From Magnolia sinica (lineage: Eukaryota > Streptophyta > Magnoliopsida > Magnoliales > Magnoliaceae), in contig NC_080579.1 in assembly GCF_029962835.1 (NCBI RefSeq), positions 85,081,959 through 85,145,958 on the forward strand: a stretch of DNA of 64,000 nt, given 5' to 3'. Of the stretch, positions 34,201 through 63,460 are shown one piece after another. The notes below the pieces were generated by a model, which was not told the DNA's origin, did not search any database, and saw nothing but the letters and a program-made list of their open reading frames with translations. Position numbers and translations under genes: made by a program. Position 1 is the stretch's first letter; every line of letters begins with the position of its first letter.

Positions 34201-37200
34201 ATTGGTGGAAGGGCACCAGTAATTGAGAAGGGCACTAGTAATTGTTAACAAACATCTTAAATGTCTGAAATATGTTAATTTGACACATTTGCCCCTATCT
34301 CTCATTTGGAAATGTTTTACATTATAAAGAATTTTTTTTTATTAAATGAAAATATAATCATTATATTTGATTCAAATAAACTAAATACTTAATAAAAAAC
34401 TAAAATATCATCATATTTAATTCAAATAAACTAAAATACTTAATAAAAAACTAAAATATCCTCATAAGGCCTTCAATTCCTCTTAGTGGGAAGATTGTCA
34501 CTATGTGTTGTATAGGATTGAACACCAGTAGCAACAAAACCTTCAAAATAAATATATTTATATGCTATCCAAACTGTTTATAAAGTCATTCCCAATTGGA
34601 TGAAGTGAAAACATATTGATTCAAAACTTCCGTGGGGTATTTAAGTTTATTTTTCATCCAACATGTTCACAAGGTCACAAATACCTGTATGAAGAGGAAA
34701 AAAATAAAAATAAAAATCATATTGATCCAAAACTTCTGTGACCCCAAAAAGGGTTTCAATGGATGGACGGTTTGGATATAACACATACCTCATGATGAGA
34801 CTCGCAGAACTTGTTGACATCAATACAACATCTATATAGCTGGTGTGAGGTACACCAACCAATCTGCATCCTACTTGGACGCGGATTAACTATTGACAGG
34901 TTGAATAGGGAAGCGGATTGGCTGGTGTACCTCGCACCAGCTGTATAGTTGCTGTATTGATGTCAGCAAGTTCTGTGGGTCTAATCATGAGGTATGTGTT
35001 ATATCCAAACTGACCATCCATTTTGCGAGATAGTCTTAAGGCTTGAGACAAAAATGAGACAGATATAACTATCAAGTGGACCACACTACAAAAAGCAATG
35101 GGGGATTGAACGCATACCATTGAAAACCTTTTTTGGGTCAAAGAAGTTTTGGATCAATATGAAATTTGTTTTTCCTCTTCATTCATGTCTTTGTGACCTT
35201 ATGAACAGATTGGATGGAAAATAAACGTTATGGTGGGCCATAAGAATTTTTTAATGGTGAAAATCATTGTCTCTGGTGCTATTTGTGGTGTGGTCCAGAT
35301 GATATTTGGATATGATTCGTTTTTCGAATAATGCTCTAAAATGATCTCTAAAAATAGATGAACGGTGTAGATATGATAAATACATCAATGTGGGTCCATG
35401 TGTCTTTGATCTCCTTTGAACCGTTCGTACAACTCGGAGCTCGAGGAGCGTCAATGCTCGTCTTCGCACGACACGTTACTACAGCAGCTATATAGCTGGT
35501 GTGAGGTACACCAGCCAATCCGCTTCCGCTGAATAGCGAGATTCACTACCGAAGTGACGTCATCAAGTTCCATGGGCCCACTATGATGTATGTGCTTTAT
35601 CTACACCGTCCATCTATTTGGAGATTTAATTTTAGAGCATGAGTTAAAGAATGAGGCAGATCCAAATATGTAGTTGACCCCACCACAAAAAACAATGGCG
35701 AGATTGATGCCTACCTTTGAAACCTTTCTAAGGCTCACGGTGATTTTTGTTTGAAATCCAATCTGTTCACAAGTTAACACAGACATGAAAGAAGAGAAAA
35801 AGTAAATATCAGCTTGATTAAAAAACTTTTGTGGCCTATTTAAGTTTTTAATGGTGAGCATCACTCTCCCCATTGTTTTCTGTGGCGAGGTCCACTGGAA
35901 CTTTGGATTTGACTCATTCTTTGGATCTGTACTAAAAATTTTATTTCCAAATGGATGGATGGCGTGGATACAAAACATACATCATGATGGGCCCACACAA
36001 CTTGGTGACGTGGCGAGTGTCGCTACTCAACCTGTCAGTATCCAATCCGCGTATGTGGAAACAGATTGGCTACTCCCCTGCCACCAGCCAATGGCCGATG
36101 GTCGGTGCTATGTGGGCCCCACCATGATGTATGTGTTTCATCCATGTCGTCCATCTATGTTTCTAGATCATTTTATGGAATGAGACCAAAAACGAGGTAT
36201 ATACCAATCTCAAGTGGACCACATTACAGGAAAACAGTGTTGAATGAACGTCGACCATTAAAAACTTTTTAGGGGCCATAAAAGTTTTGGATCAAGCTGG
36301 TCTTTGTTTTTTTCCATTCATCTAGGTCTATATGACCTAATCAATAGATTGGATGTCAAATAAACAGTATAGTGAGCCTTAGGATGATTTTAATGGTGGA
36401 TATCCAATCAGTATTGGTTTCCTGTGGTGTGGTCCACCTGAGATTTATATTCCTCTCATTTTTTAGATCAAGCCCTAAAATGATCATTAAAAATGGATGA
36501 ATGGAATGGATGAAACACAGACATCATGGTGAGGCATAAAGAAATTTCACAGGTTAAAAGTTAATTTTGTATTGCGCAAACAATTTAAAGAGAAAAAATT
36601 GCCGTAATAACTTGAAAAGGGGTAATTTTGGAAGCAAAAATTTTTGTTTAATGAAAAATTCACTGAGCGCATTCCGCATTCACCATTAAGCCAGACTCCT
36701 GTCACGGAAAGAATTCAGTGAAAAACCACTTAGCGTTTTCCTTCTTCCGCATTAACGACGCATTAACAAACACCACTAAATACGGAACATTTTCCCAATT
36801 CAGCGTTAAGTGCAAAAATTCAGCGTTAGCAAACAGGCCCTTAGTTGTTGCAACTTTAAGTCAATTGCACATCCAAACACAACTCTCATCGTGATCACTC
36901 TTTTGTTAAATGGTAAATGCTTTACATATCAGGGAAATAGTTATGTTAAACCTTTTTGGTTTTAGAATCTTTTTTATCTGTGGTTATTTTATTCATGTTG
37001 ATTTGGGTAGGCCTGGCAATGTGATGCAGGACATGAAAATTAACTATGATATGCAAGATCTCAGGCTTTAGATTATACTAATTCAGAAACAATCACATAA
37101 AATTCTACATCCCACACAAAAGTTCAAACATTCAAGCAAGGGGAATCTGTGCGGGTCCAGGCCTACACAGGCTAGGGCTGGATCAGTAAAATTATGGACT

Positions 37201-40200
37201 AAACGATACTCAAAGGGAAGTAAAAATCATCCACACATGCACAACAATCAGTCCCTAATCCAAAGGATTCACCAATTCCAATTCAGAGAACTCTAGGGTA
37301 AGAAAATGGGCAAATAAATTGAAAGTAATGCAATCTAGGGTTAGGGTTAGGGAGAATAGGTATGAGAGGAGTAAAATAGGCGGAAATCTGAACCTAGAGA
37401 TAGTCCCCGCGCGCGGATAGTGGGCCAGGCCTGTCGCACTTGTGAAGGGGTCTGGCCGCACGTGCAAGGGGGCGCCAAATGCGGAAAGCGCCTCCTTGGC
37501 TCTGGTCAGCCAGGGAAGGGCTTCAAAAACTCCAAGTTTCGTGTCGATCGGATGCGCGGTCTGTGCGTGGTGCTCTGCTGAAGTTTCAGCCCTTCTGCAG
37601 GGCCAGAATATGGAATTCTGTTGTAAAGAGGAAAACTGTTGCAATAAATGATAGATTTGAAGCGCGGATGACAGTAGGAGATGAGAAATAGAGATGCTGG
37701 AAGATGGGGGCGAATCGGGATCGATGTGGTTTCGCACGACAGTACTTAGCCCTTCGATGAAGGGAGGGCTTCTCACCCAATTGGATTTCCAGAACTTGAG
37801 AACTCAGAGGAGCAGAAAAACGCAGAATATTTATTAAGCTTCAACGGAAAAAACTTACAAGGGGTGCTTATTTATAAGAAAACCTTATATCCCTTAAACT
37901 CACGCCATGTGCGCAACCTTTTACTTGACGATGAAATAAACACAAATAATAACTAATCAAAGTAATCTAAACCATCCATGATATTCTAAATAACATTAAT
38001 AAGCAAAACCTAAAATATGAGATTAATCTGACTAGTGGGCCACAATCATGAGATCCTATGATGGGCTTTACTTGACTACCGGTCCCACTCCAAAGAACCA
38101 AAACTCAGTCTTCTAGCTAGGAAGCCTTCTCTGGATGTTGTCACCTATCCAAATTGACGGTGGGGCCCTCCTCCTCCTTGCGTACGTACGTAGGGGGCGG
38201 CGTGCGTGTGCGTGCCCGTGTGATGTCCCCATCAACTCTCCCCGACTGCGAAGATTTCGCCACTGGCGAAATAAAACTCCTGAACCGCTTTGAGATGTAA
38301 GGATCAAGTCTCTGAAGCTCCTCCTCAGCGAGCCACGTACTGTATGAAGCTGGACGTGACTTCCACTTGACCAAGAACTTCTGAAACCTGCCGTCTGATG
38401 TGAATATTATCTGATGGTCTAGAATATCCTCTATTTTCTATTTAGCTGTAGGAAGGGTAGGTATGAGAGGTAGAGGCGGGGAAGATGGGTCGGGATGAGT
38501 AGGTATAAGAGGTAGAGGCTGAGAAAATGGGTCGGGAAGGGTAGGTATGGGATGTAGTGACTGAGAAGATGGGTTAGAACGAGGAGGTATGAGAGGTAAA
38601 GGTTGGGAAAATGGGTCGGGAAGGGTAGGTATGAGACGTAGAGGTTGGGAAGATGGGTCGGGAGGGGGCCATGGATCAAGAGAAAGGTCTGGGGAATCAT
38701 GATGGTTAGGTGATAGGCAGGATAATGTATCAGTGGTCTCCTGAAATGCAACTAGATCTTTCACATTGAATGTGGACTAATTCTCATAGAAGGAGGAAGA
38801 TGTACCACATACGCATTGAGACCGTTTCGTTTTATAATTTTGAATGGTCCAGTGCCATGCACATGTAATTTACAAACGGCTCCTTGAGGGTACCGCTTTG
38901 GCCTGATGTGGACTATCACAGTCCCTTACATTGAATTCCTTGAAACATTTATGTTGGTCTGCAGAAAGTGTGTAATGTTCATTACTAGTCATGGTCTTCT
39001 GCCTGATTTCTTGATGCCATGAATGAATGTGATGCGCAAAAAATTCTGCAGGCTCTGACGGCCTATGGGACAATGACATAGGGACAAGATCAATAGGTTT
39101 CCTAGGTTTATAACCGGTAACGACTTCACAAGGACTTAGACCTGTGGACCTATCGACAGAACTATTAAATGCACACTCGACTATAGGTAGTATGGTGTCC
39201 CATGTTCTGGTGTACCTTATATCCCTCACAAGGGGAAACTCATTTGGTAGATTATTAAGAAAGACGTCACGAAACTCATCCACTACCGGAATGGCCTCAG
39301 TGGGTAACTCTACACTAGCCTCTGGTGCATTCTCTCTAGCCACAAGGTCGTACATGTTGTACCACTCAAAATAGTGGTCTTGATGTCCCTCATGGGGTGG
39401 GTGCACGGGTGCACGCCCATAACTGATTCCTTGGCCACCTCCATTCATTGGTCTATCCTCCTGGCCACCTGCCTGAGATTAGACATCTTCCCTAATGGTG
39501 GGGTTTGTCGCGACGGAGGCCTCTAATTGGGTAATGCGCACATCAAATTGTTCAAAGCATTGGTCTATATGTTGTTCCCAGCGCTTACCCAAAGACTCAA
39601 ATTGTTGGGTCAACTTGTTTAATGACTCTTGCAATTGCTCCATGTTTAGTGTAGGGTGCAAACCAAAACCATGACTTGTACGTGTGAGCATACAACTGCT
39701 AACTCAATCTAAGGACCTTCTACTGTGACTATATATAACTAAATATGACTAAATGATCTTATGAGACTTTATATGAGGGAAACTACGCAGTGCTACCAAA
39801 ATTCAGAAATATAGTTGTCAAAATATAAGAAAGTATTTTTTTTATTTTTTTTTTCCTTTGTTTTTTTTTTTTAAAGAAACAACCTAGTTTTTAAAAACGA
39901 AAAAGGAAAGTTTCTAAAAAAATAAATTAATCAGGAAAGTTTCTAAAAAAAAAGCAACCTAGTTTCTAAAAATGAAAAAGAAAAGTTTCTAAAAACAGAT
40001 TAAGAAAGTTTCTAAAAAAAAAAAATTAGGAAAGTTTCTAAAAAAATAACCTAGTTTCTAAAAAAAGAAAAAAGGAAGTTTCTAAAAATAGAAAGTTAAT
40101 TTCTAAAATAATTCAAATAAGGGGATAATAGAAAATTTTAGCAGCTTATGTCAGGGTTTATGGATCTCTAAACAGCCATATATGATGAGAATTGATGCGT

Positions 40201-46200: not shown

Positions 46201-49200
46201 GTGATCCAAATTCAGTGGTGGCCCATTGAGGAACATGCACACACACACACAAACTATGAGCACCATGACCGGACCCATCACACTCCCACAAATGAGCAGC
46301 AATCTTCATTTGTTCACCAATGTAAAGTTTCTCAGGTTGGACAGCACTTTATCAAATGTTATATGATACACCTTTCAAAAGTACCATGTTTGCTTTGTTT
46401 TGATTGCATACGATTAACTGAAGAAAAGGATCAATCCAGCATCTATGTCAAGTTCATCTTCATCATCATTGAAGCCTCATCCTAACTAAGTGGGGCCAGC
46501 TATCTATGTCAAGCTACTTGAAAATTTCAAATTATATTAATGAATATTATGTCTATGGTAGCAATGGGTGGATGTCAGAATGAAAGATGTGTTTGTAAAT
46601 GACTCTTTTTTTTTTTTTTTCCTTTTTCTTTTCTTTTCACACAGACTTGTCGAATGCCAATGTTCATATTGAATAAGCACAGATCCATACAATCAGAATA
46701 TGCTGGTCCTGAAACTGGACTAACCGTTCAGCACTAGGGGTGGCCATGGCGGGGTCTGGATATTATTTAGGGTCGCCTTTTTGTTACTCTTTAAATCTGT
46801 CAGCTTCTTGTTTTAGTACTTTCTCCTGTTTTGCATATGCTTGTCATTCCTCAGATCTGGCTACTGGTTCATAATTGCTTTGTTTCTTCTCAAAAGTGAA
46901 TGATAAAACCCTTCTGATTTGATTTGTCGTTTTAGGACCGTTTCCTCTCTTCAACATTTCTCCTTATCATGGTACATGAGTTCTTTCATGACTTGTTAGT
47001 TTTCTGGGAATTTTTTTTTTTTTTTCTGTAAACAGTTCCCACTTCTTCCCAGAAAAAAAGTGTTTTATTACTCCCTTCCTGAAATTTTCCCCAATGCCCC
47101 ATTCTCCTGGCTTTTGATGGGAATTATTTCCCTAACAAAAATGCTGGGGAAATAATGTGCCTGAAAAGCTGGGGAAATTTTGGCATATATGCCATGGGAC
47201 ATTTTCTTTTAACATCACTGATCGAAAGGTTATGATCATCCAATGAAAGAGTATTTTTGAGAGGGTTAGTCAATCAAAGCTAGACCCCACATGATATAAT
47301 CAATAAGGACAGTCCGGTCCATTCTTCAAGCGATTGCATGGATGATTAATGCGAAATGACCAAGATAATTTTTGAGAGATATTGGTGATTAAAGGTGAGC
47401 CCCACATGATGGACAATGATGAGCCACTTTCCAATAATAAGTATGGATCATCCATTTTCTAGCTGTTGATCAAATGATTAAGATGATTCAATCAAAGTGA
47501 TTTTTGAGAGATGGGCAATCAAAAGTGGTCCACACATTGTATATGGTCCATATCAATGATCAAACCCTTTCCAGTAAAACAATTAAGGGCTGTCCATTTC
47601 CCATCTAGTTGTTGGATGGTTAGGATAAGTAGATCAAAATAATTTTTGGGAGGGATGGACAATCAAAGATTGGCCCACGTGAGCAACAATGATCATGCCT
47701 TTTCTACTATAATAATATGGGGAGGTTTTGACATATTGAACCATGACATTTCTTTTTCATATTCCTGGATAATCCATTCCATTTTCCAAATAAGGTAAAA
47801 AAACCACCATGTGGTTAGCTTTTGTTGCCAACTCATGATAGAACTATGACAGAGCCGTTATAGTCAACTGTTGACCATTTAGAAAGACATTTTTATCTTA
47901 TGCTGCATACCGAAGAGGAATGTGGCTTTTTTTATCCTTACAAACTATAGGTGCTTGTCAAAATCGTGCGAGTAACTTTCAATTTTTGGGCCTTGTTGCA
48001 CATGCATGTGAGAATATAAAAGTTTTAAAATTTGTATACGGAATGCAATTTTAGTAACAATAGGAGTGGAGTTGTTAAGATTGTTGACGAAGAAGTACCC
48101 AAAGACGGCTATTTTCAATGTTGGTTGATAGTTCGTAAGAGTGGAAAGACTGGGAAGGATGTTGCTCATTGAACTAGAGATGGGTAGATGAAGTGGAGAT
48201 GTGCTTCTGGAGGTTTTTTTTTTTTTGTTTGTGAATTCTGCATACCAATCAAACTAAAGGGGGGATTTCTAGGATAGCTATAAGACGAATCATGCTTTAT
48301 GGGAAAAAATGTTGGGCAGTTAAGGAACAACATGTTCATAGGATGTGTAGTTGAAATGGATGAGTGGCTAGACAAGGAAGGATAGAGTCAAAGTTGTGCG
48401 AGTGACCTCCAATTTTTGGGCCTTGCTACACATGTATGTGATATTAGACTCTAAAGATTTTAAAATTAGTTGGACTAAAAGAAAGTATATGGTATGCAAT
48501 TTTAGTAACAATAGGAGTGGAGTAGTTAAGATTGTTCATGAAGAATTACCTAACAATGGCAATTTTCAATGTCATGGGTAGATAGTAGTTCATGAGAGCG
48601 GAAAGATTGAGGTGGATGTTGCTCATTGAACTAGGACGTTGCATACCAATCAAACTAATGGGTATTTTTTTTTGAGATATCTATAAGACCAATCGTGCTT
48701 TATGGGACAAAATATTGGGCAGTTAGGGAACAACATGTTCATAGGATGAGCGTGGTTGTAACGAGTATGTTGAGATGGATGAGTAGCAAGACAAAGGATA
48801 GAGTTAGAAACGAATGCATTAGATAGAAGTTAGGAGTAGAACTAATGGGTAATAAGATGAGGGAAATTAGACTTTAAATGGTTCGGTCACTCACGATGAA
48901 TATGATTTGTTCAACATAAATATATGATTTTGATTTGTTCATAACATGGACAAACCAATTTTGTTCAACATAGACAAATCTAATCCGTACAACATGCATA
49001 TGAAAATCTGATCCATTCATCATGCATAGACGGATCTGATCCATTCAACATATATAGACAAATCTGATGCATGCAAAACAAAGACAAATATGTTCTGTTG
49101 AATGCACAGAGACATGATCCGTACAACATACATACACGACTATGAGCTATTCAACGTACATAGATGAATCTGATCCATTCATTGTACACAGATGAATCTA

Positions 49201-52200
49201 ATCCATTCAACAATTAGCGATAAATCTGACCCATTTAACATACCATAACAGTTCTTATGCATTCAACATACAAACAAATATGATCCATTCAACATATGTA
49301 GACAAATCTAATATGTTCAATATACATAGAAAAATATGATCTGTTCAACATAGATAAAAAGATTTGATCCGTTCATCATACATAGTCCAATATGATCTAT
49401 TCAACATAGATGAATGTGATTTGTTCAATGCACATAGACAAATTTGATCCGTTCAACATGCAAACAAATTTGATCCCTTCATAAGACCAGTGTTCGTAAT
49501 ATTGATACTATCGGCTGATATATTGGCCGATATTATCATTATCGGTCCTCAGCGGCATGAAACCCCCTAGAAATTATAAAAAAAATCCCCGATTTTTGGA
49601 TATCGTGCGATATATCGCACAATATCTCAATTTATCGTGCAATATCGCCGATAAATGCATGATATTATTAAATATAGAAAAAAAAAATCTCGTACCTATT
49701 TTGTCTGCCTGAGGGAGCCTCAATCGATTGGATTTGGTGGGTTGCGGTGGACATTGCCGGATCATGTAAGAAAACCCTAAACCCCTTGTTTTTCTTCGAA
49801 GAGAATTGTTTTGGAAGGAAACCAAGTTTCCACCGATGATTATGGGGATTTGAAAAAAAACAAAATTTAGGAGAGATTTTTGGGATAATTAAGGAATTTG
49901 AAGTTGCCGAGGCTCGTGTGTTGTAGGTTTAATAGAGAAGAAGACAGGAAGTTGTGGAGGCACGTTTACACTTGCGAAATTACCGTATACGGGTTCTTAA
50001 TTTATAATATCATGATATATATCATTTTTCATTATCCATATTGATGGAAAATGGATGATTTTTTAGTTTTTTTTTTCTAATTATTTATTTTTCAGAGTTT
50101 CCCCTTTTTAAGATGATTAGAAAAAATCTTACAATTTACAGTACAACTTCTAGTGAGATATGATTGGACCCTTATAACAACTCACGATACAATTGCTGTT
50201 TTGACAACATTGCTTACATGAATAACATCACATTCTCAAGACCATCACCTATTCTAGACATTGCCTGTTGAAAGTAAATGAAACAAACAAACTCATGCTT
50301 AGATTTAAACCAACAAACGTAATGCAATTGAGCATCACCTAGGGGCCGTTTGGCATCTCTACTAATTAGAGGTTATTTGCTTATTCTAGAAAATTAAGTT
50401 CTTATTTTGAAAATAGACTATTTAGTTTCTAAAAAATTAAGTGATGGAGATGTCACTTTTTTTTAAAGAGCTTATTTGGCTTAAGCGGGTGTAGACACCT
50501 TACCCTGCATGGGATGACCAATTCCAGCAAGATTCGAACCATTGATGACACTTCTAAAATTCTGAATCCATCCAACCCAAAAAAACTCCAAAACCAAGCC
50601 CAATTCCATACCCAAATCAAGCCCAAGCCAAATTCTAAGCCAAGCCAAGTCAAATCCTAAGCCAAGCCAAGTCTAATCCTAAGCCAAATCATAAGCCAAG
50701 CGAAGTCCAATCTTAAGCCAAATTCAAGCCAAATGTGAGCCAAATTGAAGCTAAATCCAAGAGGTGCATCAAGGGGAGGCTTACCCAATGGAGAACACAT
50801 CCAAAAGTCAACTCCCCCCAAAATGCTATTGAATTTCTTTTTAATTACACTCTCTACCGCTCCAAAAGCAAATGAGGGGATGCCATAGGCACCAAGCTCC
50901 TCTTAGCCAATTATAACATTCCATGTGTTATTTGTAACCCTTAACCTTTAATTACACCCTTGCCATTCCTCTAACTATAAAAAAAAGGGGTCCCCCCTCT
51001 CATTCTCTACACACTAAAGAGAGGGAGAGGAGGGAGCTTACCCACACCCTTCTTCTCTTTAAGCACTTAACCTAGCCACCTAACCTAGCCCAACCTATCC
51101 TAACCTAGTCACCCAACCTAGTCACCCAACCTAGCCCAACCTATCTCAACCTAGCTACCTAACCTAGCCCAAACTGTCTCAACTTGGCATATATAGTCTT
51201 TCCAAACCATCCAAACCCTTCAACCAATCTACTCAATCCAAGCTGCTCGTTCAAAGCCCAGCTCATATTTAAGCCAATCCAGTCCGTTTGAAGCCATCAT
51301 CCAACTCATATAAGTCATCTCAATGGTTTAAATCTTGCGGAGTAGGGTCATGGTTGAAAATATCTGATCATCTCTTCTATGAAGAATATTGGGTCTCTTC
51401 TTCCCTCTCTCACATTTCCGTTTTGTCGGTCACCTCACGTGGTACATTACTGTTTTTTATTATTATTTTACTTTGCTTATATCTACTCGCAACACCCACT
51501 TCCTACTCAAATCTCATGCTTTCTCAATTTATCTAGGTGTATGCTCTGCGACTTGTTGGAAGCCCAGATCCTGTCCATCAGAAATCTGGATTGATTGAGA
51601 TGAGTAAGGCCCACCTTTGATGTCCCTCATCCATCATGTGGGTCCCACCTTTGATGTGGACCATCCATCAAGTGGAGCCACACTTTGTTGCGGGCCATCC
51701 ATCATGTGGGGCCCACCTTTGATGTGAGCATCCATTATGTGGGTCCACCTTGATGTGGACCATTCATCATGCGGAGCCCCACCTTCAATATGGGTTGTTT
51801 AGCATGTTCTCCCACCTTAGAGAGATTGTAAAGAGCAGAAAAGAGGGCAAGATGGGAATGACTTCAAAAAGTTTTAGGACAAACTTGTCAAAAAATTAGC
51901 CAAAAATGTCTACCTGTTGCAGACACCCCACCCTACACGGGATGACCAATTGCAGCAATATCCGAACTATTGATGACTTTCGAAATCTTGAAGTTGTCCA
52001 CCCTAAAATACTCCAAAACCAAGCCTAATTACATACCCAAATCAAGCCCAAAATCAAGATCAAGCTAAATTCTAAGCCAAGCCAAGTCCAATTCTAAGCC
52101 AAACCCTAATCCAATTTCAAGCCAAATTCAAGCTAAATCCAAGAGGTGCATCAAGGAGATGCTTATTCAAGGGAAAACACATCCAAAAGTCAACTTTTTC

Positions 52201-55200
52201 CCTCTCAAAATGTCATTAGATTTCTTCTTAATTACACCCTCTACCACTTCCGCAGTAAATGAGGGGATGCCTTGTGGCACCAAGCCTCTCTTAGCTAATG
52301 AGAACATTTCATGTGTTATTTTTAACCCTTACGTAACTTTTAATTACACCATTGCCATCCCTCCAACTGTAAAAATGGATTTTCTCTCTTATTCTCTATG
52401 CACCAAAGTGAGGGAGAGAGGAGGGAGTCATCCACACCTTTCTTCTCTTTAAACACTTAGCCTAACCACCCAACCTAGCCCAACCTATCTCAACCTAACC
52501 CATCTAGCCCATCCAAACCATTTAAACCCTTCAACTAATCTAGTCAATCCAAGCCAATCATCCAAAGCCTAGCTCATATCTAAGTCAATCTAATCCGTTC
52601 GAAGTTATCATCCAAACCATATAAGTCATCTCAATGGTCTAGATCTTGTGGAGTAGGGTTGGGGTTGAAGATATTTGATAATCTCTTCTGTGAAGAGTAT
52701 CAGGTCTCTTCCACCCTCTCCCATAACTCCGTTTTGTTGGTCACCTCACGTGGTATATTACTACTTTATTTTACTTATAGCTACTCACAACACTTAGAGA
52801 AGCAGTCAAAATTCAATTGATCTGAGTTTTTGATGGGCAGGATCTGGTATCCTGGCAAGCCATAGAGCATACACTCGGATAGACTAGCGTGGTGGATTCA
52901 AGGTATATGGATGTATGGAATGCAAGGATGATGCAAGTGTAATGTCTGACTCAAGATAGTAAAAAATATAAAATCTTAGTCGATCCGGGTTTCTGATGGA
53001 CAAGATCCGGGATTCCAACAAGTTGCAGAGCATACACTTGTATAGATTGCGAAAGCAGGGGGTTTGAAAAGGGAGTGAGTGTTGCGAGTAACTATAAGAA
53101 AAGTAGAAGAAAGCAGTAATGTACCATGTGAGGTGACCGACAAAACGAAGTTGTAGGAGAGGGAAGAAGAGAACCGATATTCTTCGCAAAAGAGATGATT
53201 TGATATCTTCAATCCATACCCTACTTTGTAAGATCTAGACCATTGAGATGACTTATTTAGTTTGGATGATAGCTTTGAATGGATTGACTTAGATATGAGA
53301 TAGGCTTTGGATGAGTGGCTTGGATTGACTGGATTGGTTTGAGTGTTTGGATGAGATAGATGGGCTAGGTTGAGATAGGTTGGTTTAGGTTGGGTGGCTA
53401 GGTTGGGCTAGGTTGGGTGGCTAGGCTAAGTGCTTAAGGAGAAGAAGGATGTGGGTGAGCCCCCTCCTCTCTCCCTCTTTGGTGTGTAGAGAATGAGAGG
53501 GGAAATCCATTTTTATACTTTGAGGGATAGTAAGGGTGTAATTAAATGTTATGTAAGGGTTAAAAATAACACATGGAATGTTCTCATTGTCTAAGAGGGG
53601 CTTGGTGATATATGTCATTTCCTCATTTGCTTTGAAAGTGGTAGATGGTGTTATTAAGAAGGAATCCAAGGGTAATTTGGGAGGGGGAAAGTTAACTTTT
53701 GGATGTGTTCTCCTTTGGATAAGCCTCCTATTGATGTACCTCTTGGATTTGACTCACATTTGACTTGAATTTGGCTTAGGATTGGACTTGTCTTAGAATT
53801 TAGCTTGGGCTTGGTTTGGGTAGGGAATTGGAATTGGTTTTAAAGTTTTTTTAAGATGGACAGATTCGGCATTTTGGAAGTCATCAATGCTTCGGATTTT
53901 GCTGCAATTGGTCATCCCACGCAATCTGGGGAATCTATTGTGGGTAGACATTTTTGGCTAATTTTTTGACAAGTTTGTCCTTAAAACTTATTAAAGTAAT
54001 TCCTATTTTGCCCTCTTTTCTTATCTTTCCAATCTCTCTAAGGTGGGCCAACTTGATGAACAACTCATATAGAAGGCAGGGCTTTGCATGATGAATGGTC
54101 CATGTCAAGGTGGGCTCACATAATGGACAGGTACATCAAAGGTGATGGATGGCCTGCATCAAAAGTGTGGCCCCACTTGATGGATGATCCATATCAAAGG
54201 TGGGACCTACATGATGGATGGTGGACATTAAAGGTATGGCCCACATGATGGACCATCCACCTCAAAGGTGGGACCCACATGATCGACATTTGACATCAAA
54301 GGTGGGCCAACATGATGAATGGCCCATATCGAAGTTGGCCCCCCACATCATTAATGGTCCACATTAAGGCGGGCCAACATAATGGACAGAGTGGGCCTCA
54401 CATGATGGATGTCCTGCATCAAAGTGTGGCTCCTCGTGATGGACAGTCCACATCAAGTGGGTCCCACCTAATGGATGGTCCACATCCAAGGTCTCGCATG
54501 ATGGATGACCCATATTCAAAGTGGCCCAACGTGATAGATGATCCATGTAGAAGGTGCGCCCCACATGATGGATGGTGGACATAAAAAGTGGGCCCACATA
54601 ATGATCCACATAGAAGGTGCGCCCCATACAAGTCTACAAACAGTCCAAGAACTTTCTACAAGACTATGCACATACAGTCCAAAAACATTTCCCAATCTGA
54701 ATAACTCGATTTACCCATCTCAGCCGAAGTCATTCTATCCAACATTCCAAACCAATAGAGGGTTTCAAATGTTAATATGTACTCTAGTTCAATACAATTT
54801 TGAATATTATTGAATTGCCAGGATAAGGAGTTACCTATCCATCTTGTTGATTGAATGGGTCATATTCATCTATGTATGTTGAACGGATAAGATTTGTTTA
54901 CGCGTGTTCAACGTATTATATTCTTTTGTGTTTTGATTGGATTAGATTTGTCTATATGTTGAATGGATCAGATGTTTGTATGAATTAACGGATTATATGT
55001 CTATGTATAACAAATGAATAGAGTTTGTTTATGTATATTCAGCAGATCAAATTCCTCTATGCATATTAATGACTTAGATTAGTTTGTGTTTTGAATGGAT
55101 TATCATGTATTTTTTTAATGGATCATATTTGTGTGTGTATGTTGACAGGGATCATATTCGTTTACATATGAATGAACAGATCATATCCATCTATTTATAT

Positions 55201-57055
55201 TAAACAGATCATATTTGTCTATATATGTTGAGCAATTCATATTTGTCTGTATTTTGAATTGATCAGGTTTGCCTGTGTTATCAAAGGATGAGATTCATCT
55301 CTATATGCTGAACGAATCGGATGTCTATATGAATGAACAAATAAGACTCCGTCTATATATGTTGAAAGGATCCAATTTGTCCATGTATGTTGAACAATTT
55401 GGACACACCTGTATGTTGAACGAATTTGATATTGTTGAAACCCACATAATGAATGGTTGAAATCTCACCTTAGCCATACGAAGGTTCAGATCATTTGACA
55501 TTGGTTGGGCCCATGTTATAAGCGGTTCGACCTCGCATGCACGTGCGACAAGGCCCAAAAATTGGAAGTCGGTTACATGATTTTGAAAGATTCTATAGTT
55601 TATAGGGGCGGAAAGTCATTTTCCTCTTCTTTATATAGCACAGAGGCAAAACTATTTTTTTTATATGTTCAACAGATGACTATAATGGCTCTGTCATGGT
55701 TTTTTCATGGGTTGGCAATGGAAGCTAACCACAAGGAGGTTTTTGACCATATATAGAAAATGGAAGGAGTTATCTGAGAATGCGAAAAAGGAAGGGAGTT
55801 ATTTGGGGTATCACAAAGGGGGGAGGGTGCTACATGTCAAAACCTATAATATTCTATTTTCTAGTTGATGGTCAAATGGTTAGAATGACCTAATCAAAGT
55901 TCCTTTTTGGGAAGTATGAGTAAGGTGGACTGCTCATGATGTATGGTCTAGATCACAACTTGTACCTTGTTTCTACGATAATGAATATCAGCCATATATT
56001 TTCATCGCCATTGATAGGTTGCTTATGATCATCTAATCAAAGTAATTTTTGAGGCGGACATGCAATGAAAGGTGGGCACATGATGGACGGTCTAGATCAA
56101 TGAGTAGGCCTCTAATATAGCCCATAGCCATTGGTTGGAGGGTTAGAATCATCGGATCAAAATGATTTTTGAGAGAGATGTGCAATTAAAGGTGGATGAT
56201 GAATGCATGATGGACAATCAATGATCAAATGCTGTCATTATGATCAATCAGGACTGATTGCTTTCTTTGGCATTGATTAATTGCATTAACTTTAGGATGA
56301 TCCATGCATTATATGGTCCACTTGATGAATGGATGGATCCATCACACATGTTCTTTATGTCAAATTTGATTCTAGAATGACCTATGCATTATGTGGCACA
56401 TTTATTTGAATGACTCAGATTTGTCACACATTTTCAATGCAAAAATGGTAAACCCTGAATGGTAGACCGGTCCATGCATTATGTGGCCAACTTGATGAAT
56501 GAATAGGATTTATTGTGCCATTAGTCTCACAGATACAATACATGCACTTTCAAATATGGCATATTCCTTCAAACGGTTGTTGAGGTTTGAAGTGACACCA
56601 CTCATTTGCCAAAGGCTTTAGTGTCTCCATTTTTTAAAAGGCTTTAAGTTTAGCATCTCCATGTTGGGAAGATTATTTCATTTACAAAATCAGGCATTAC
56701 TGTTACCAATAAAAAACTCTTCTCTAACTTATATTTGCTCTTTTTGTTTCTGGATGTGCCGGTTTAAATTAGCCTTGCACCATCACCATCTTAGCCTCAC
56801 ATCCATAGAAGAAAAGCTCAAATGCTAGAATAACATTCCTAATGCCACGGTCACAGTCTTTAAGACATGTAAACTAGTGGTCCTCAAATATCAGAATAAC
56901 TTCCTTTTATCTTGTACTCATTCTTGTTAGTTTCATCCCAATTTATGTGTTAATTGTTGTTACACCATTGTATATTCCTTGAATTCGTACCTACAGATTC
57001 TAAGAGAGCTGCCCTTCTCGCTTCCATTCGTGACCCTGGAATAGTTCTAAGAAAG
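25160..57055 (+). CDS. WASH1-like protein (WASH complex subunit 1), 5' ten coding exons, 3' end not seen
   Basis: Ten exons (25160-25288, 25374-25430, 32244-32420, 32521-32607, 43727-43806, 44164-44263, 44833-44947, 45478-45573, 45706-45900, 56997-57055) join in phase with GT-AG introns into 365 open codons. Residues 16-65 are an amphipathic helix pair like the WAHD1 domain (QSLLDLQQAADRIFDTISE, then NILTRISKVKGKID), followed by a SRYPS...YQALFS stretch that aligns with the animal WASH1 'KYPAPGRLQEYGSIF' region. Residues 230-241 (KLPVILPDLPM) match WASH1 'DVPSYLPDLPG'. Residues 198-202 and 301-308 are proline-rich. Residues 346-365 (RAALLASIRDPGIVLRK) are a WH2-like actin-binding motif. WASH1 activates Arp2/3 on endosomes. 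The central-acidic C-terminus that should follow was not found. Function is by homology. Confidence 0.8.
25374..25430 (+). CDS. WASH1-like, coding exon 2
   Basis: Acceptor TATCTACAG, donor GTAATT, 19 codons AAEEREKLENILTRISKVK, continuing the charged helix of exon 1. Phase 0 at both ends. Confidence 0.82.
25574..26409 (-). mobile_element. Probable solo LTR in WASH intron 2
   Basis: Ends TGTTGGAATA...AATACAACA; flanks TTAGA (25569-25573) and TTTGA (26410-26414) are a 4/5 target duplication. On the minus strand it contains GGGTTTAGTCCCACATCGG, a TATA-like CTATATAAGG at about 25951-25960 and a CT-rich leader, as in plant LTR promoters. There is no internal coding region, hence solo. A (TGCATC)n tract lies at about 26120-26140. 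Confidence 0.6.
26415..27161. other. WASH intron 2, dispersed repeat field
   Basis: Repeated modules GAGTATGGTTTCTTGTACTC, CACGTGGCATGCATG and TGGATCCTTGATCATTTC occur here and again at 27110-27165 and 28070-28200. No gene. Confidence 0.5.
27167..28069 (-). mobile_element. Solo LTR with perfect 5-bp target duplication
   Basis: Begins TGTTGTGGTTCG and ends GGGACGAACA (TG...CA on the minus strand). ACATG flanks it on both sides (27162-27166, 28070-28074). Removing it restores the module GACATGCATGTA seen intact at 26485. The minus strand has a TATA box CTATAAATAG at 27763-27754. It contains three near copies of TTACACTAAGGAATGTAA (27610-27710). Confidence 0.85.
28075..29252. other. WASH intron 2, dispersed repeats and (TG)n
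   Basis: A (TG)n tract spans about 28218-28243 and CATGCATGCATG is at 28488-28500. Dispersed modules (CTTGTGGGCCCCACAGTGGG, TGGATCATTACCCAAG) are present. No supported coding sequence. Confidence 0.5.
29984..30002 (-). other. Primer binding site, tRNA-Asp type
   Basis: On the minus strand TTTTTGGCGCCATTGCCAGA adjoins the LTR end. TGGCGCC(A/G)TTGCC is the complement of the tRNA-Asp 3' end used by Athila-type Ty3/Gypsy elements. Confidence 0.65.
30006..31413 (-). repeat. LTR of the Athila/Tat-like element
   Basis: TG at 30006 and CA at 31413. The first about 250 bp are repeated at 29253-29513 (AAGGGTTGACAACCCTAAGT versus AAGGGTTGATAACCCCAAGT; TAATAACTTGGTGAGAC versus CAATAACTTGGTGAGAC), with about 12 percent difference by eye. 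Confidence 0.72.
31414..32243. other. WASH intron 2, 3' part
   Basis: Unique-looking intron sequence with one dispersed-repeat island (about 31850-32090: TGCCATGGCCTAAGAGCC, CAGTGGGGCTTAGCGGATG). The 80-codon frame at 31704 has no recognisable domain. Confidence 0.5.
32244..32420 (+). CDS. WASH1-like, coding exon 3
   Basis: Acceptor TATGTGCAG, donor GTATGC, 59 codons including GKIDAMSHSNQSMTVKSPS and RYPSKSAGEEDYQALFSY. Phase 0. Confidence 0.82.
32521..32607 (+). CDS. WASH1-like, coding exon 4
   Basis: Acceptor GCTTTGGCAG, donor GTAAAT, 29 codons EFGIDGTLELFQFFSETACE and onwards. Phase 0. The next intron is 11.1 kb long. Confidence 0.78.
32608..33706. other. WASH intron 4, 5' part
   Basis: Words such as GGGGATGCTAGCAACGTCCC recur in altered form at about 33358-33410 (GGGGACGTTACAAACATCCC). 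Open frames overlap on both strands without codon bias; no gene supported. Confidence 0.5.
33849..33924. repeat. 76-bp direct repeat, copy 1
   Basis: GTTAACAAACATCTTAAATG through GGAAATGTTTTAC. Almost identical to 34244-34320; together they bracket the PMD fragment. Confidence 0.92.
33880..34305 (-). pseudogene. Plant mobile domain (PMD/MAIN-like) fragment
   Basis: The minus-strand frame contains LLNYWCPSTNSFHLPEGEMS, then ITLWNIHRIVGLPITGKFFD, the conserved core of PMD proteins (MAIN/MAIL, 'serine/threonine phosphatase 7 long form'-like), where a W-x-P-x-T-x-x-F-x-x-P-x-G-E-M pattern leads into LGLP. Only about 105 residues are present of a domain usually over 300, and both ends run into the flanking direct repeats. 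It is a captured exon fragment, not a gene. Confidence 0.72.
34244..34320. repeat. 76-bp direct repeat, copy 2
   Basis: Same as 33849-33924 except TATCTTTTGTTGG versus TATCTCTCATTTGG. Confidence 0.92.
34560..34872. mobile_element. Foldback MITE, right part
   Basis: Ends in GCTGGTGTGAGGTACACCAA then CCAATCTGCATCC, the same terminal sequence as the next element's right end. The left end is missing or degraded. Center words ATCCAACATGTTCACAAGG and TGATCCAAAACTTCTGTG are family-typical. Confidence 0.6.
34878..36053. mobile_element. Foldback MITE interrupted near its left end by another foldback
   Basis: Left end ACGCGGATTAACTATTGACA then GGTTGAATAG, resumed after the insertion as CGAGATTCACTACC. 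The right end (36000-36053) reads ACTCAACCTGTCAGTATCCA then ATCCGCGT, its inverted counterpart. Removing 34909-35536 restores a simple palindromic element. Confidence 0.78.
34909..35527. mobile_element. Foldback MITE with 9-bp target duplication, inserted in a foldback
   Basis: Terminal inverted repeats GGAAGCGGATTGGCTGGTGT and ACACCAGCCAATCCGCTTCC are perfect over 20 bp, continuing into GTACCTCGCACCAGCT/AGCTGGTGTGAGGT. Flanks GTTGAATAG (34900-34908) and GCTGAATAG (35528-35536) form a 9-bp duplication with one change, as for Mutator-like elements. Confidence 0.85.
36058..36545. mobile_element. Foldback MITE with GGCTACTCCCCTGCC end
   Basis: Left GATTGGCTACTCCCCTGCCA (same as 18733), GGTCGGTGCTATGTGGGCCC; arms CAAGTGGACCACATTACAGG and TGTGGTGTGGTCCACCTGAG pair. 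The right terminal repeat is missing after CATCATGGTGAGGC. Confidence 0.68.
37022..38234 (-). repeat. 3' LTR of the deleted Gypsy element
   Basis: TGATGCAGGACATGAAAATT to GATGTCCCCATCA. Carries a short region at 37440-37480 (GAAGGGGTCTGGCCGCACG, GTGCAAGGGGGCGC) absent from the other LTR, which explains most of the length difference. Confidence 0.88.
38141..38437 (-). pseudogene. Chromodomain at the polyprotein C-terminus
   Basis: IEDILDHQIIF then GRFQKFLVKWKSRPASYSTW and LAEEELQRLDPYI match the Ty3/Gypsy integrase chromodomain pattern (ILDxR...YLVKWKG...TWxxEEdLq). The reading frame ends inside the 3' LTR at 38141, as is usual for such elements. Confidence 0.82.
38235..38248 (-). other. Polypurine tract
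   Basis: GTCGGGGAGAGT on the minus strand directly precedes the 3' LTR (TGATGGGGACATC). Confidence 0.65.
38438..38764 (-). pseudogene. Proline-rich repeat region of the polyprotein tail
   Basis: Five 45-bp tandem repeats (38450-38660) encode variants of LPLIPTLPDPFSQP. The frame ends in TAG at 38438, and the next codons in the same frame begin the chromodomain (KIEDIL), so one stop codon separates the two. Confidence 0.75.
38870..39448 (-). pseudogene. Fused RT-start / integrase-end remnant
   Basis: The frame contains the conserved N-terminal RT segment PVVDEFRDVFLNNLPNEFP followed within about 10 residues by late integrase sequence (TWDTILPIVECAFNSSVDRS, TGLSPCEVVTGYKP). In an intact element these are about 700 residues apart, so a large internal deletion fused them, keeping frame. 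The frame is then lost near 38925 (expected V-x-I-R-P-K-R-Y-P-x-G continues in another frame). Confidence 0.82.
39479..39691 (-). pseudogene. Gag N-terminal fragment
   Basis: 70 codons of acidic, coiled-coil-like sequence (MEQLQESLNKLTQQFESLGK) ending in TAA. The pol remnant downstream is in the same frame, so a single stop separates them. Full-length gag is several hundred residues; the rest is deleted. Confidence 0.65.
39840..40125. repeat. A-rich tandem repeat in the Gypsy leader
   Basis: AAGTTTCTAAAAA repeats about ten times, alternating with CAACCTAGTTTCTAAAAA. It lies in the untranslated leader of the deleted element. Confidence 0.85.
40259..40270 (-). other. Primer binding site, tRNA-Met(i) type
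   Basis: TGGTATTAGAGC on the minus strand, 4 bases inside the 5' LTR. The canonical plant site is TGGTATCAGAGC, so there is one change. Confidence 0.85.
40275..41435 (-). repeat. 5' LTR of the deleted Gypsy element
   Basis: TGATGCAGGACATGAAAATT to GATGTCCCCATCA. By eye roughly 95 percent identical to the other LTR apart from indels, so the insertion is relatively young. Confidence 0.88.
41677..42380. repeat. Degenerate inverted repeat element of the TTACGGCC/TATCGGCC type
   Basis: Left: CCGTTACGATACGTCC, GTAACGGCCGTGGCC, GGCTGTTACGGCCATTATGG. Right: AACCGTTATGGCCCCGTATC, GGCCATTACGGCCAATACCC, ACCAATACGGAATACC. The ends are inverted copies of one another. Related sequences are at 49497-49650, 59240-59440 and 60050-60240. 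Confidence 0.55.
42381..43726. other. WASH intron 4, 3' part
   Basis: Contains 'GGGTTGGGTTGCCCTAAACC' and 'CCTAAGCCTAACCCACCC' low-complexity debris at 42600-42725 and a (AAATA)n tract at 43620-43650. No gene supported. Confidence 0.5.
43727..43806 (+). CDS. WASH1-like, coding exon 5
   Basis: Acceptor CTTGTTTTAG, donor GTAATT, 80 nt ending in phase 2. Encodes ASDGFTHSRGNAYSEYLIEP and PKFPNS. Confidence 0.78.
44164..44263 (+). CDS. WASH1-like, coding exon 6
   Basis: Acceptor GGTGTCTAG, donor GTAAGA, 100 nt. With the phase-2 AG it reads SCLAEDRTALDSSFKPKHQS then LPPPPPSLLLHNSR. A second AG 6 nt downstream would also keep phase. Confidence 0.75.
44833..44947 (+). CDS. WASH1-like, coding exon 7
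   Basis: Acceptor TATTTTGTAG, donor GTGAGC, 115 nt. Encodes SLPGPESFSFKPAVKQLQSL and KLPVILPDLPMVSNTAFG, the segment most diagnostic of WASH1. Confidence 0.85.
45478..45573 (+). CDS. WASH1-like, coding exon 8
   Basis: Acceptor TTTTCAAAG, donor GTATGC, 96 nt, phase 1 in and out. Ser/Thr-rich: INSLSKTSEHRSPETSSSTL. Confidence 0.72.
45706..45900 (+). CDS. WASH1-like, coding exon 9
   Basis: Acceptor TGAGCAAG, donor GTATGG, 195 nt, phase 1 in and out. Contains the poly-proline LPTPPPLPPS and a Ser/Gln-rich tail. An alternative AG 4 nt upstream breaks phase. Confidence 0.72.
45901..47224. other. WASH intron 9, 5' part
   Basis: (CA)n at 46237-46250, poly-T at 46607-46622 and 47010-47025, and a short RTE/SINE-tail-like segment CCTCATCCTAACTAAGTGGG then GCCAGCTA at 46472-46503. 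No coding region recognised. Confidence 0.5.
47225..47727. repeat. Diverged tandem array, left of the giant foldback
   Basis: Four units of about 120-130 bp, each with AATCAAAGTGATTTTTGAGA-like text, a GGGCAATCAAAAGTGG-like segment and a 'cacatgatgnacaatgatga' segment. The same array, in the same orientation, resumes at 55855-56560 after the giant element. Confidence 0.7.
48010..48390 (+). pseudogene. RTE-type LINE reverse transcriptase remnant, copy 1
   Basis: Broken frames give GMQF..NNRSGV, then GWMKWRCASGG and RRIMLYGKKCWAVKEQHVHR. The LYGTECWAVK and WMKWRCASG motifs belong to the C-terminal part of plant RTE reverse transcriptases. Many frameshifts. Confidence 0.65.
48392..48900 (+). 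pseudogene. RTE-type LINE reverse transcriptase remnant, copy 2
   Basis: Readable pieces: CNFSNNRSGVVKIVHEELP, IRPIVLYGTKYWAVREQHVH, MLRWMSSKTKDRVRNECIR, LGVELMGNKMREIRL. Stops interrupt every segment. It repeats copy 1 including the leading TGTGCGAGTGACCTCCAATT module (compare 47964), so the remnant and part of the foldback arm were duplicated together. Confidence 0.7.
48905..49485. repeat. 28-bp satellite, left arm
   Basis: About 20 degenerate units of the form ACATACATAGACAAATCTGA then TCCATTCA. The reverse-complement array is at 54845-55440. Confidence 0.85.
49490..50489. other. Interruption of the left arm, no counterpart on the right
   Basis: 49497-49650 is a TATCGGCCGATATTATC-type repeat. 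50340-50489 looks like the end of a GGGGCCGTTTGGC MITE. No coding region; it makes the left arm longer than the right. Confidence 0.5.
50490..51600 (+). repeat. LTR-like unit A
   Basis: Starts TGTAGACACC, contains AAGCCAAGCCAAGTC tandem text, a TATA-like AACTATAAAAAAAAGG at about 50975-50990 followed by a CT-rich leader (CTCATTCTCTACACAC), and CCTAACCTAGCCCAACC repeats. Unit B (plus) and unit C (minus) are diverged copies. The promoter layout suggests a solo LTR or terminal-repeat retrotransposon in miniature. No primer site or internal region seen. Confidence 0.5.
51600..51830. repeat. About 40-bp satellite, left arm
   Basis: Five to six units like CACCTTTGATGTGGACCATC then CATCATGTGGG. Inverted counterpart at 54050-54640. 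Confidence 0.88.
51905..52796 (+). repeat. LTR-like unit B
   Basis: TGTCTACCTGTTGCAGACAC to CTACTCACAACACTT, collinear with unit A (GGGATGACCAATTGCAGC; CAAGAGGTGCATCAAGGAG; TCTTATTCTCTATGCACC). Confidence 0.7.
52797..52984. other. Axis (loop) region of the palindrome
   Basis: A minus-strand fragment of the LTR-like end (TTTTTGATGGGCAGGATCTG, GAGCATACACTCGGATAG) plus about 80 bp of apparently unique sequence separates units B and C. Confidence 0.55.
52985..53960 (-). repeat. LTR-like unit C (inverted)
   Basis: Reverse complement of unit B/A: GAGGTGACCGACAAAACGAA, TTGGTGTGTAGAGAATGAG, CGGATTTTGCTGCAATTGG then TCATCCC. It forms the innermost part of the right arm. Confidence 0.75.
54050..54640. 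repeat. About 40-bp satellite, right arm
   Basis: About 14 units like CACATGATGGATGGTCCACA then TCAAAGGTGGGC. Much expanded compared with the left-arm array. Open frames here on both strands are products of the repeat. Confidence 0.9.
54845..55440. repeat. 28-bp satellite, right arm
   Basis: About 20 units like TGTTGAATGGATCAGATTTG then TCTATGTA. Reverse complement of the array at 48905-49485. Confidence 0.85.
55855..56560. repeat. Diverged tandem array, right of the giant foldback
   Basis: Units with AATCAAAGTAATTTTTGAGG, GTGCAATTAAAGGTGG and CATGATGGACAATCAATGA, the same orientation as 47225-47727. 56270-56530 continues with a 'CCATGCATTATGTGGCC' repeat seen three to four times. Confidence 0.68.
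56997..57055 (+). CDS. WASH1-like, coding exon 10 (WH2-like motif)
   Basis: Acceptor ACCTACAG, donor GTAGAG, 59 nt. With the phase-1 G it reads DSKRAALLASIRDPGIVLRK, matching the WH2 pattern (LLxSIR...LRK). It is separated from exon 9 by an 11.1-kb intron that holds the giant foldback element. Confidence 0.82.
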
Positions 57056-61719: not shown

Positions 61720-62103
61720 CTATGTACAGTCGGATGATTGTCTTTTCTTCCACTTCACTAAGTACCTTTGAAATCCACCGTCCCGAGTGGAAACAATTTG
61801 CTCATCCACAATTCCTTCAATTTTTTCTCTTTTCTCAGGTATGGTAGGCATAGGTGGTGTGAGTTGGGAAGAAAATTCAGAAATTGACCAATGGTTTGGA
61901 ACAAAATTAGCGTCTATGGGATGGCTTGAACAAGGCATTAGATCCTCCACATTGAATGTTGAACTAATCCCCATACGAGGTGGAAGAGCTATCACATATG
62001 CATTGGACCCAATCGTTTTCAGAATCTTAAATGGTCCAACACTGCGTGCTTGTAACTTCTTAATGGTACCTTGTGGGAACCGTTCTGGCCTCATCCTAGC
62101 CAT
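61720..62103 (-). pseudogene. Gypsy integrase C-terminus and chromodomain
   Basis: RPERFPQGTIKKLQARSVGP then FKILKTIGSNAYVIALPP (GPF/Y module) followed by a proline-rich linker and IEGIVDEQIVSTRDGGFQRY, LVKWKKRQ (chromodomain). A stop at 61720 truncates the domain before its TW...E motif. Confidence 0.85.
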
Positions 62104-62252
62104 TACATAATCACCCTCATTAAATTCTTGAATTCTACGATGTAAGTTAGTTGAAATTTTGTATTGTTCATTACTAGCATTTATCGCCTCCTAATCTCTG
62201 CATGCAACTCATGAATGTGATGGGAAAATGCATCAGCTGATTCTGAGGTCCG

Positions 62253-62447
62253 CTAGGTGACTGACATAGATAACAAATCTATGGGTAGTCTAGGTTTGTA
62301 ACCACTAACAATCTTGAATGAACTCATACCCATGGACCTATTAACTAAACTGTTATATGCAAACTTGGCGACTGGCAGGATTAAGTCCCAAGTTTTAGTG
62401 TGTTCACCCACCAAACATCGTAGTAGATTTTCGAGACTTAGATTCAC
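62253..62447 (-). pseudogene. Gypsy integrase, end of core
   Basis: TKTWDLILPVAKFAYNSLVN and GYKPRLPIDLLSM are typical of the post-Glu part of Ty3/Gypsy integrases. The same segment is present in the deleted element at 38870-39448. Confidence 0.82.
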
Positions 62448-62516
62448 AACCTCAGTTTAGCCATCAGTTTGAGGATAGTAGGCAGACGAGAACTAGAGTC
62501 TCGTACCCATCATATG

Positions 62517-63119
62517 TCATAATGTCTTCAAAAAATAACTAGTAAACCGGACATCCTTGTTAGACACTATGGTCTGAGGCAAACCATGTAATCGAACCAC
62601 CCCCTCAAAGAAAATTTTGGCTTTGTTGGACAAATCTGAGGTTTTAGAACAAGGGAGAAAGTGGGCCATTTTTGAAAAATGGTCCACGACCACAAAAATG
62701 GAATTGCGCCTTTTAAGTGTCTTAGGAAATCCAAGCACGAAATCCATACTAATGTCTTGCCACGGTGCATGTGGCACTGGCAATGGCGTGTACAATCCAG
62801 TATTTTGCTTCTTCTGTTTTGCAAATTGACATGTTCGACATTGCCCTAAAATTTTGGCTACATCTCGCTTGAGACTTGGCCAATAAAATCGATCCTCCAC
62901 TAGGGCGATGGTTTTGTCTCGACCAGAATGGCCAACAATAACTCCAACATAAAGCTCCCAAATAAGGAAATCCCGGAGGGAAGTGCGGGGAATACAAAGT
63001 CGGTCTCCTTTGAAAAGGAAACCATCTTTCAACACAAACTTACCCGAACTATGCTGGGCACCTAAGAGTGACACGTATGTTCCCCCAAAATCCGGACACA
63101 TGGGATACTCGTCTTCCAA
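62517..63119 (-). pseudogene. Gypsy integrase, zinc finger and catalytic core
   Basis: 200 open codons. The H-x-GRDKT...C-x-x-C zinc-binding region (GHSGRDKTIAL, CRTCQFAK) is followed by the core, with one catalytic Asp in DISMDFV and another in SNKDVRFTS. The frame stops right after FLKTL, before the catalytic Glu, so this segment alone is not functional. Confidence 0.88.
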
Positions 63120-63460
63120 TTGCTAAAACCCGACTACTTCTACACTCAAGGAGTTGAGCAATGTCACTCTCTTACTAAGGGCATCGGCTGGTTTGTTATC
63201 GATCTCGGCTTTATGTTTTAGGATAAATGAATATTCCTAAAGAAACGCTGCCCACTTGGCATGCCTTGGGTTAAGCTTCTTTTGGGAATTCAAATACCTC
63301 AAAGCCTTGTGATAAGAAAACAAATAATTTCTCTCAGTGGAAGATAATGACGCCAATGACGTAGCGACTGCACTACCGCATAAAATTCTTTGTCATAAGT
63401 GGAATACTTTTGTTTTGCCTCATTCAGTTTCTCACTAAAATAGGCAACTGGATGACCCTC

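Follow-up and report, generated by a model that had tools for sequence, protein, structure and literature searches.

An apparent 8.1-kb insertion with inverted ends and mirrored satellites in Magnolia sinica, likely a nesting of known kinds of repeat and not a novel type of element

In several foldback-like transposable elements the terminal inverted repeats are long and are accompanied by tandem repeats. Tm1 of Meloidogyne is described with long composite terminal inverted repeats containing tandem repeats of variable number (PMC3169594), and some copies of Galileo in Drosophila with long terminal inverted repeats and variable tandem repeats (PMC3573991). FB of Drosophila and FARE of Arabidopsis are cited as foldback-like elements in the same papers (PMC3169594, PMC3573991). 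According to the authors of Tm1, both P-type and Mutator-like (MULE-type) transposases occur among such elements (PMC3169594), and the foldback form therefore does not name a family in the present case. MULEs of plants whose terminal repeats are long or multiple are described as mostly non-autonomous, some with captured sequence, and all 61 of 61 tomato MULEs with additional repeats had a distinguishable target duplication (PMC3310237). In Tat elements, Ogre among them, tandem repeats are reported as a common feature of the 3'UTR (PMC7004042), and in soybean Gmr9/GmOgre minisatellites lie between the coding region and the LTR (PMC3305785).

The locus described here resembles FB, Galileo, FARE and Tm1, as far as these are characterised in the papers cited, in its composite terminal inverted repeats and the tandem repeats within its arms. 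It differs from them in the unmatched sequence between repeat and satellite, in the retroelement-like pieces of its interior and in having no recognised transposase. It lies in a stretch of 64,000 nucleotides of M. sinica (contig NC_080579.1, positions 85,081,959 to 85,145,958), hereafter the window, in which all coordinates are counted. A preliminary description had reported a single giant palindromic element at 47728-55848, inside the presumed intron 9 of a WASH gene; Pfam gave no match for the two candidate exon pieces of that gene. From left to right, the features are as follows.

47247-47722, plus strand: host tandem array left of the insertion (repeat families D6 and D11)
47723-48012, plus strand: left terminal inverted repeat, beginning AGGTTTTGACAT (alignment to 55532-55845 reversed)
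47957-48804, plus strand: local tandem duplication, two copies of about 430 bp, of the inner repeat end and sequence we take to be LINE-like (direct matches)
48892-49482, plus strand: 28-bp satellite of the left arm, 22 near-complete units (tandem-repeat detection)
49490-50489, no strand: left-arm stretch without a partner on the right arm, whose matches in the 65-row self-comparison are limited to short palindromes of its own
50490-51496, plus strand: retroelement-like unit A, LTR-like, TG...CA, then about 107 bp common to unit C (self-comparison)
51610-51790, plus strand: 34-bp satellite of the left arm, about 5 copies (tandem-repeat detection)
51918-52795, plus strand: retroelement-like unit B (self-comparison)
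52796-53078, minus strand: centre, the sequence following unit C, with a 76-bp piece present twice, 163 bp apart (repeat family D18)
53079-53946, minus strand: retroelement-like unit C (self-comparison)
54037-54626, minus strand: 34-bp satellite of the right arm (tandem-repeat detection and self-comparison)
54841-55435, minus strand: 28-bp satellite of the right arm, 22 near-complete units (tandem-repeat detection)
55532-55845, minus strand: right terminal inverted repeat (alignment to the left repeat)
55846-56207, plus strand: host tandem array right of the insertion (families D6, D11 and D16; joined unit tested)

The described split of a host array by an insertion, the array being direct on either side, was well supported. 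Copies of a host repeat of about 134 bp lie at 47328, 47460 and 47602 to the left of the element and at 55862, 56005 and 56125 to its right, all direct. Removal of 8,121 bp leaves 139 bp between the copies at 47602 and 55862, the other spacings being 132, 142, 143 and 120 bp, and the array resumes in phase. The host unit joined in this way aligned to all four intact units with scores of 104, 86, 57 and 41, compared to maxima of 27, 25, 31 and 16 from 500 mononucleotide shuffles per unit. With the ends placed 4 bases off, the scores were nearly equal (103, 87, 57 and 42), and the extent of the insertion is therefore approximate, its ends not being fixed to the base. The insertion of about 8.1 kb with inverted ends into a continuous host array is thus supported by the sequence. 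Candidates for a target duplication of 7-12 bases appeared only with shifted ends; of 300 randomly chosen pairs of places, 11 scored as well or better. When the two flank halves were aligned to the individual host units, they overlapped by about 10 bases on unit u1 and about 5 on u4, with no overlap on u2 and u5.

The outermost 12 bases, AGGTTTTGACAT, are exact inverses of each other at 47723-47734 and 55834-55845. This places the ends of the element at 47723/47724 and 55844/55845, 3-5 bases away from those first proposed. The inverted ends themselves were confirmed: the exact ends continue into a terminal inverted repeat of about 0.29 kb, which aligned with 73.8 % identity over 286 ungapped columns, poorly near 47740-47790, and in the self-comparison of 46-58 kb the inverted match between 47749-48012 and 55793-55532 had 75.6 % identity. 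With at most one mismatch allowed, the window contains the 12-base end two times, on both occasions at the ends of the element. Two or more such matches also arose in 20 of 100 shuffles, so that the short ends are no proof on their own, the long repeat that follows them being required. Both arms combine a long terminal inverted repeat with tandem repeats, as in foldback-like elements, the two being separated by sequence without a partner (about 0.88 kb on the left, about 0.1 kb on the right). The longest stop-to-stop frame wholly within the element is 143 aa. Pfam gave no match, transposase domains included, for 10 open pieces of the element, and neither Rfam families nor tRNAs were found in the window.

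Within 47728-55848, 25 inverted pairs were found (E ≤ 1e-3, self-centred palindromes excluded), covering 5,688 of the 8,121 bases and reaching 1,024 bits at best. None of 100 dinucleotide shuffles gave any inverted pair. Among 23 tiles of the same length, the 16 that are clear of the element peaked at 137 bits; such tiles do contain ordinary inverted repeats, at most 19 pairs and 2,102 bases. In the self-comparison of 46-58 kb, of which all 65 rows were used, the inverted matches are nested one within another, as they are among the 25 of 88 pairs listed from a separate comparison, and the earlier count of four or more block pairs mirrored in their order was borne out. The blocks run, from left to right, through the terminal repeat, the tandem duplication of about 430 bp, the 28-bp satellite, about 1 kb of unmatched sequence, unit A, the 34-bp satellite and unit B to the centre of 283 bp. 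They then continue through unit C reversed, the 34-bp satellite reversed, about 0.2 kb unmatched, the 28-bp satellite reversed, about 0.1 kb unmatched and the terminal repeat reversed.

The term giant palindrome thus describes the mirrored blocks correctly, but the arms are not continuous mirrors: the stretches between the blocks had no cross-arm match among all 65 self-comparison rows at E ≤ 1e-3. The left arm alone contains the additional unit A and a local duplication of about 0.85 kb, which have no partner on the right side. The duplication is seen as direct matches of 47957-48177 to 48387-48634 and of 48239-48388 to 48640-48804, with K 0.20. Part of the duplicated sequence is presumably LINE-like, judged from its translated frames; Pfam had no match there. 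The partnerless stretch of the left arm holds short palindromes at 49499-49542 (82 %) and 49599-49626 (93 % self-complementary).

Two different satellites do occur on both arms in opposite orientation, as had been described. Of the periods given for them, 28 bp was right, and the second was found to be 34 bp instead of 40 bp. The 28-bp arrays match each other in inverted orientation, for example 49121-49404 to 55395-55114 with 70.6 % identity, and the mean identity of the units is 71.2 % within the left array, 68.9 % within the right and 70.3 % between them. The order of the units along the two arms was compared using 22 units per arm, one incomplete row per arm being dropped. A path in mirror order was no better than 2,000 permutations (p 0.83, with low power at this divergence), whereas a path in direct order beat them (p 0.0075, one of two tests, likewise of low power). 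A coarser segmentation into 14 units per arm (p 0.90 for mirror and 0.13 for direct order) was discarded, as it skipped units. Each 34-bp array precedes a unit, B or C, in the assumed direction of that unit. The 34-bp satellite and the host array share stretches of 26-30 bp with 87-92 % identity (51698-51723, 54227-54256, 47388-47417), and they may therefore draw on one dispersed motif of the genome.

The unit of about 0.9 kb is present three times, A and B forward and C reversed. The inverted self-match of 51613-52794 to 54235-53078 has 78.8 % identity over 1,205 columns and includes both B and C. Unit A starts with TGTAGACACC and B with TGCAGACACC, while the start of C is degenerate. The preceding flank is unrelated in A and consists of about 100 bp and the 34-bp satellite in both B and C, a difference expected between a 5' and a 3' LTR. 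On the far side, B ends in ...CAACA, and a further 107 bp are common to A and C (76.6 %). The homology breakpoints carry TG...CA termini, with TG at the start of A and CA at the end of B, and a TATA-like box lies at base 487 of A and 430 of C, with TGTAAAAA at base 451 of B. The breakpoints are as expected from LTRs, having TG/CA ends, one foreign flank and otherwise apparent element interior. Unit C has element-type sequence on both sides, unlike a simple 3' LTR.

With the Tat/Ogre and Gmr9/GmOgre elements, as described, the locus shares a satellite placed before an LTR-like unit, here the 34-bp satellite in two copies. Unlike the Tat/Ogre elements, it has no recognised coding region, and beside units A-C neither a primer site nor, in the assumed direction, a polypurine tract was recognised by eye. 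A purine-rich stretch does adjoin the end of the unit in A and C when read in the opposite direction, so that the direction of the unit, and hence the reading of the satellite as part of a 3'UTR, is assumed. The 5 bases preceding A (GCGGG) differ from those following B (CTTAG), so that A and B taken as one element show no 5-bp target duplication. For these reasons, namely the missing duplication and primer site and the assumed direction, we call the unit LTR-like and do not class it as an LTR retrotransposon of Tat/Ogre type.

Over 835 common columns the three units are equidistant, with K 0.204 for A-B, 0.204 for A-C and 0.217 for B-C, and with 73, 72 and 64 shared sites, respectively. This disfavours mirror copying of B into C after A had split off, in which case B and C would be expected to be closest. 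The B-C flank between satellite and unit is closer than the unit itself, with 88.6 % identity over 114 columns and K 0.124 (0.064-0.201).

Other sequences of the window were also noted. Minus-strand frames at 61720-63122 matched Integrase_H2C2 and Tf2-1-like SH3 of Pfam above the cut-offs, and rve and Chromo below them; by these matches the stretch is probably a Ty3/gypsy-type retrotransposon. A minus-strand frame of 152 aa at 33880-34338 matched the Plant mobile domain (PF10536, E 5.2e-11), in keeping with a plant host. At 15828-16013 a 94-bp unit is present in two tandem copies of 100 % identity; compared to the diverged repeats nearby, this duplication looks recent. At 38451-38663 about 5 copies of a 42-bp tandem repeat translate, in a 112-aa frame of the minus strand, into a recurring proline-rich peptide.

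The reading we favour, with a probability of roughly 0.55, is a nested composite in which an old foldback-like element holds head-to-head pieces of one retrotransposon-like family. Instead of a novel type of element, the locus is likely a nesting of known kinds of repeat, and the element a decayed member of such a kind. In this reading a transposase from elsewhere would have inserted a foldback-type, non-autonomous DNA transposon, bearing a terminal inverted repeat of about 0.29 kb and an inner 28-bp minisatellite, into the host array of about 134-bp repeats. Its interior would then have come to contain pieces of one LTR-retrotransposon-like family, A and B forward and C reversed. In both B and C the LTR-like unit is preceded by a 34-bp minisatellite, an arrangement like that in the 3'UTRs of Tat/Ogre elements; these pieces would form the inner mirror, and the tandem repeats of such 3'UTRs offer a ready origin for the 34-bp arrays. 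The stretch of about 430 bp was duplicated locally in the left arm, as its direct matches indicate, and the matching parts have diverged. The element looks inert at present and we propose no working function for it.

The matching parts differ by roughly 11-30 %. The full outer repeat has K 0.352 and 0.335 in two estimates, compared to 0.21 for the inner units, with its outer stretch aligning poorly; its well-aligned inner part has K 0.295 (0.217-0.397) and an 87-bp core K 0.183 (0.099-0.295). The arms of B and C have K 0.208 (0.177-0.245). As the intervals of the inner repeat part and the B/C arms overlap, age gives no proof of the order of nesting, and the age gap was dropped as such a proof. 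From these values the outer element may nevertheless be older than the inner units.

It is possible, although unlikely, that the stretch is one foldback element, whose whole arms, together with their satellites and retroelement pieces, arose by inverted duplication, with template switching at the centre, and which moved as a unit of 8.1 kb. At least four blocks lie in mirror order around the 283-bp centre, the divergence of the outer repeat and the inner arms agrees within error, the entire stretch sits within one split host unit, and the B-C flank is closely alike, all of which would suit such an origin. However, B and C are each as distant from A as from one another, the 28-bp units showed no mirror order (at low power) and the sequences between the blocks are unmatched. 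A single inverted duplication of the whole arm was not our first choice in view of the equidistant units and, at low power, the missing mirror order. Of the single palindromic element first described, the insertion with inverted ends is retained, while the rest is not well supported in view of the equidistance of A, B and C, the extra sequence of the left arm, the unmatched stretches and the target-duplication candidates, which need shifted ends. That a foldback transposon built its arms from retrotransposon ends and moved all 8.1 kb as one, making a palindromic family with two satellites, appears very doubtful.

The outer element could instead be a non-autonomous MULE with long terminal repeats that had captured LINE-like and retrotransposon-like fragments, a reading we regard as quite improbable. 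MULEs make target duplications of 9-11 bp. The long terminal repeat and foreign interior would fit, as would TATAATAAT/TATAATATT, a candidate 9-bp duplication that has one mismatch, and the overlap of the flank halves on u1 and u4, which is not seen on u2 and u5. This duplication, however, requires the left end to be moved out by 7 bases which the host-unit alignment weakly suggests to be host DNA, random places match it equally well in the proportion given above (11 of 300), and none of the 10 open pieces gave a match to a mudrA-type or other transposase in Pfam. Compared to the tomato MULEs with additional repeats, as these are described (PMC3310237), the element here has duplication candidates only with shifted ends.

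A chance pile-up of repeats without a single insertion, with two separate copies of a small repeat as the outer ends, is hardly probable. In its favour, much of the interior is without a match, the end motif by itself might arise repeatedly by chance, and shifting the ends by 4 bases gives an equally good join of the host unit. Against it, the alignment of the outer repeats starts at their exact ends and extends over about 0.29 kb, and beyond the element the host array continues in phase.

If the favoured nested reading is true, mirror-image satellites from two unrelated sources, the satellites inside the arms of a DNA transposon and the minisatellites of head-to-head retroelement pieces, would mimic one design. 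If the locus were a single element after all, it would represent a foldback family of unusual size in which minisatellites of retroelements become palindromic arms, which would be relevant to the origin of satellites and to the rise of hairpin-prone introns.
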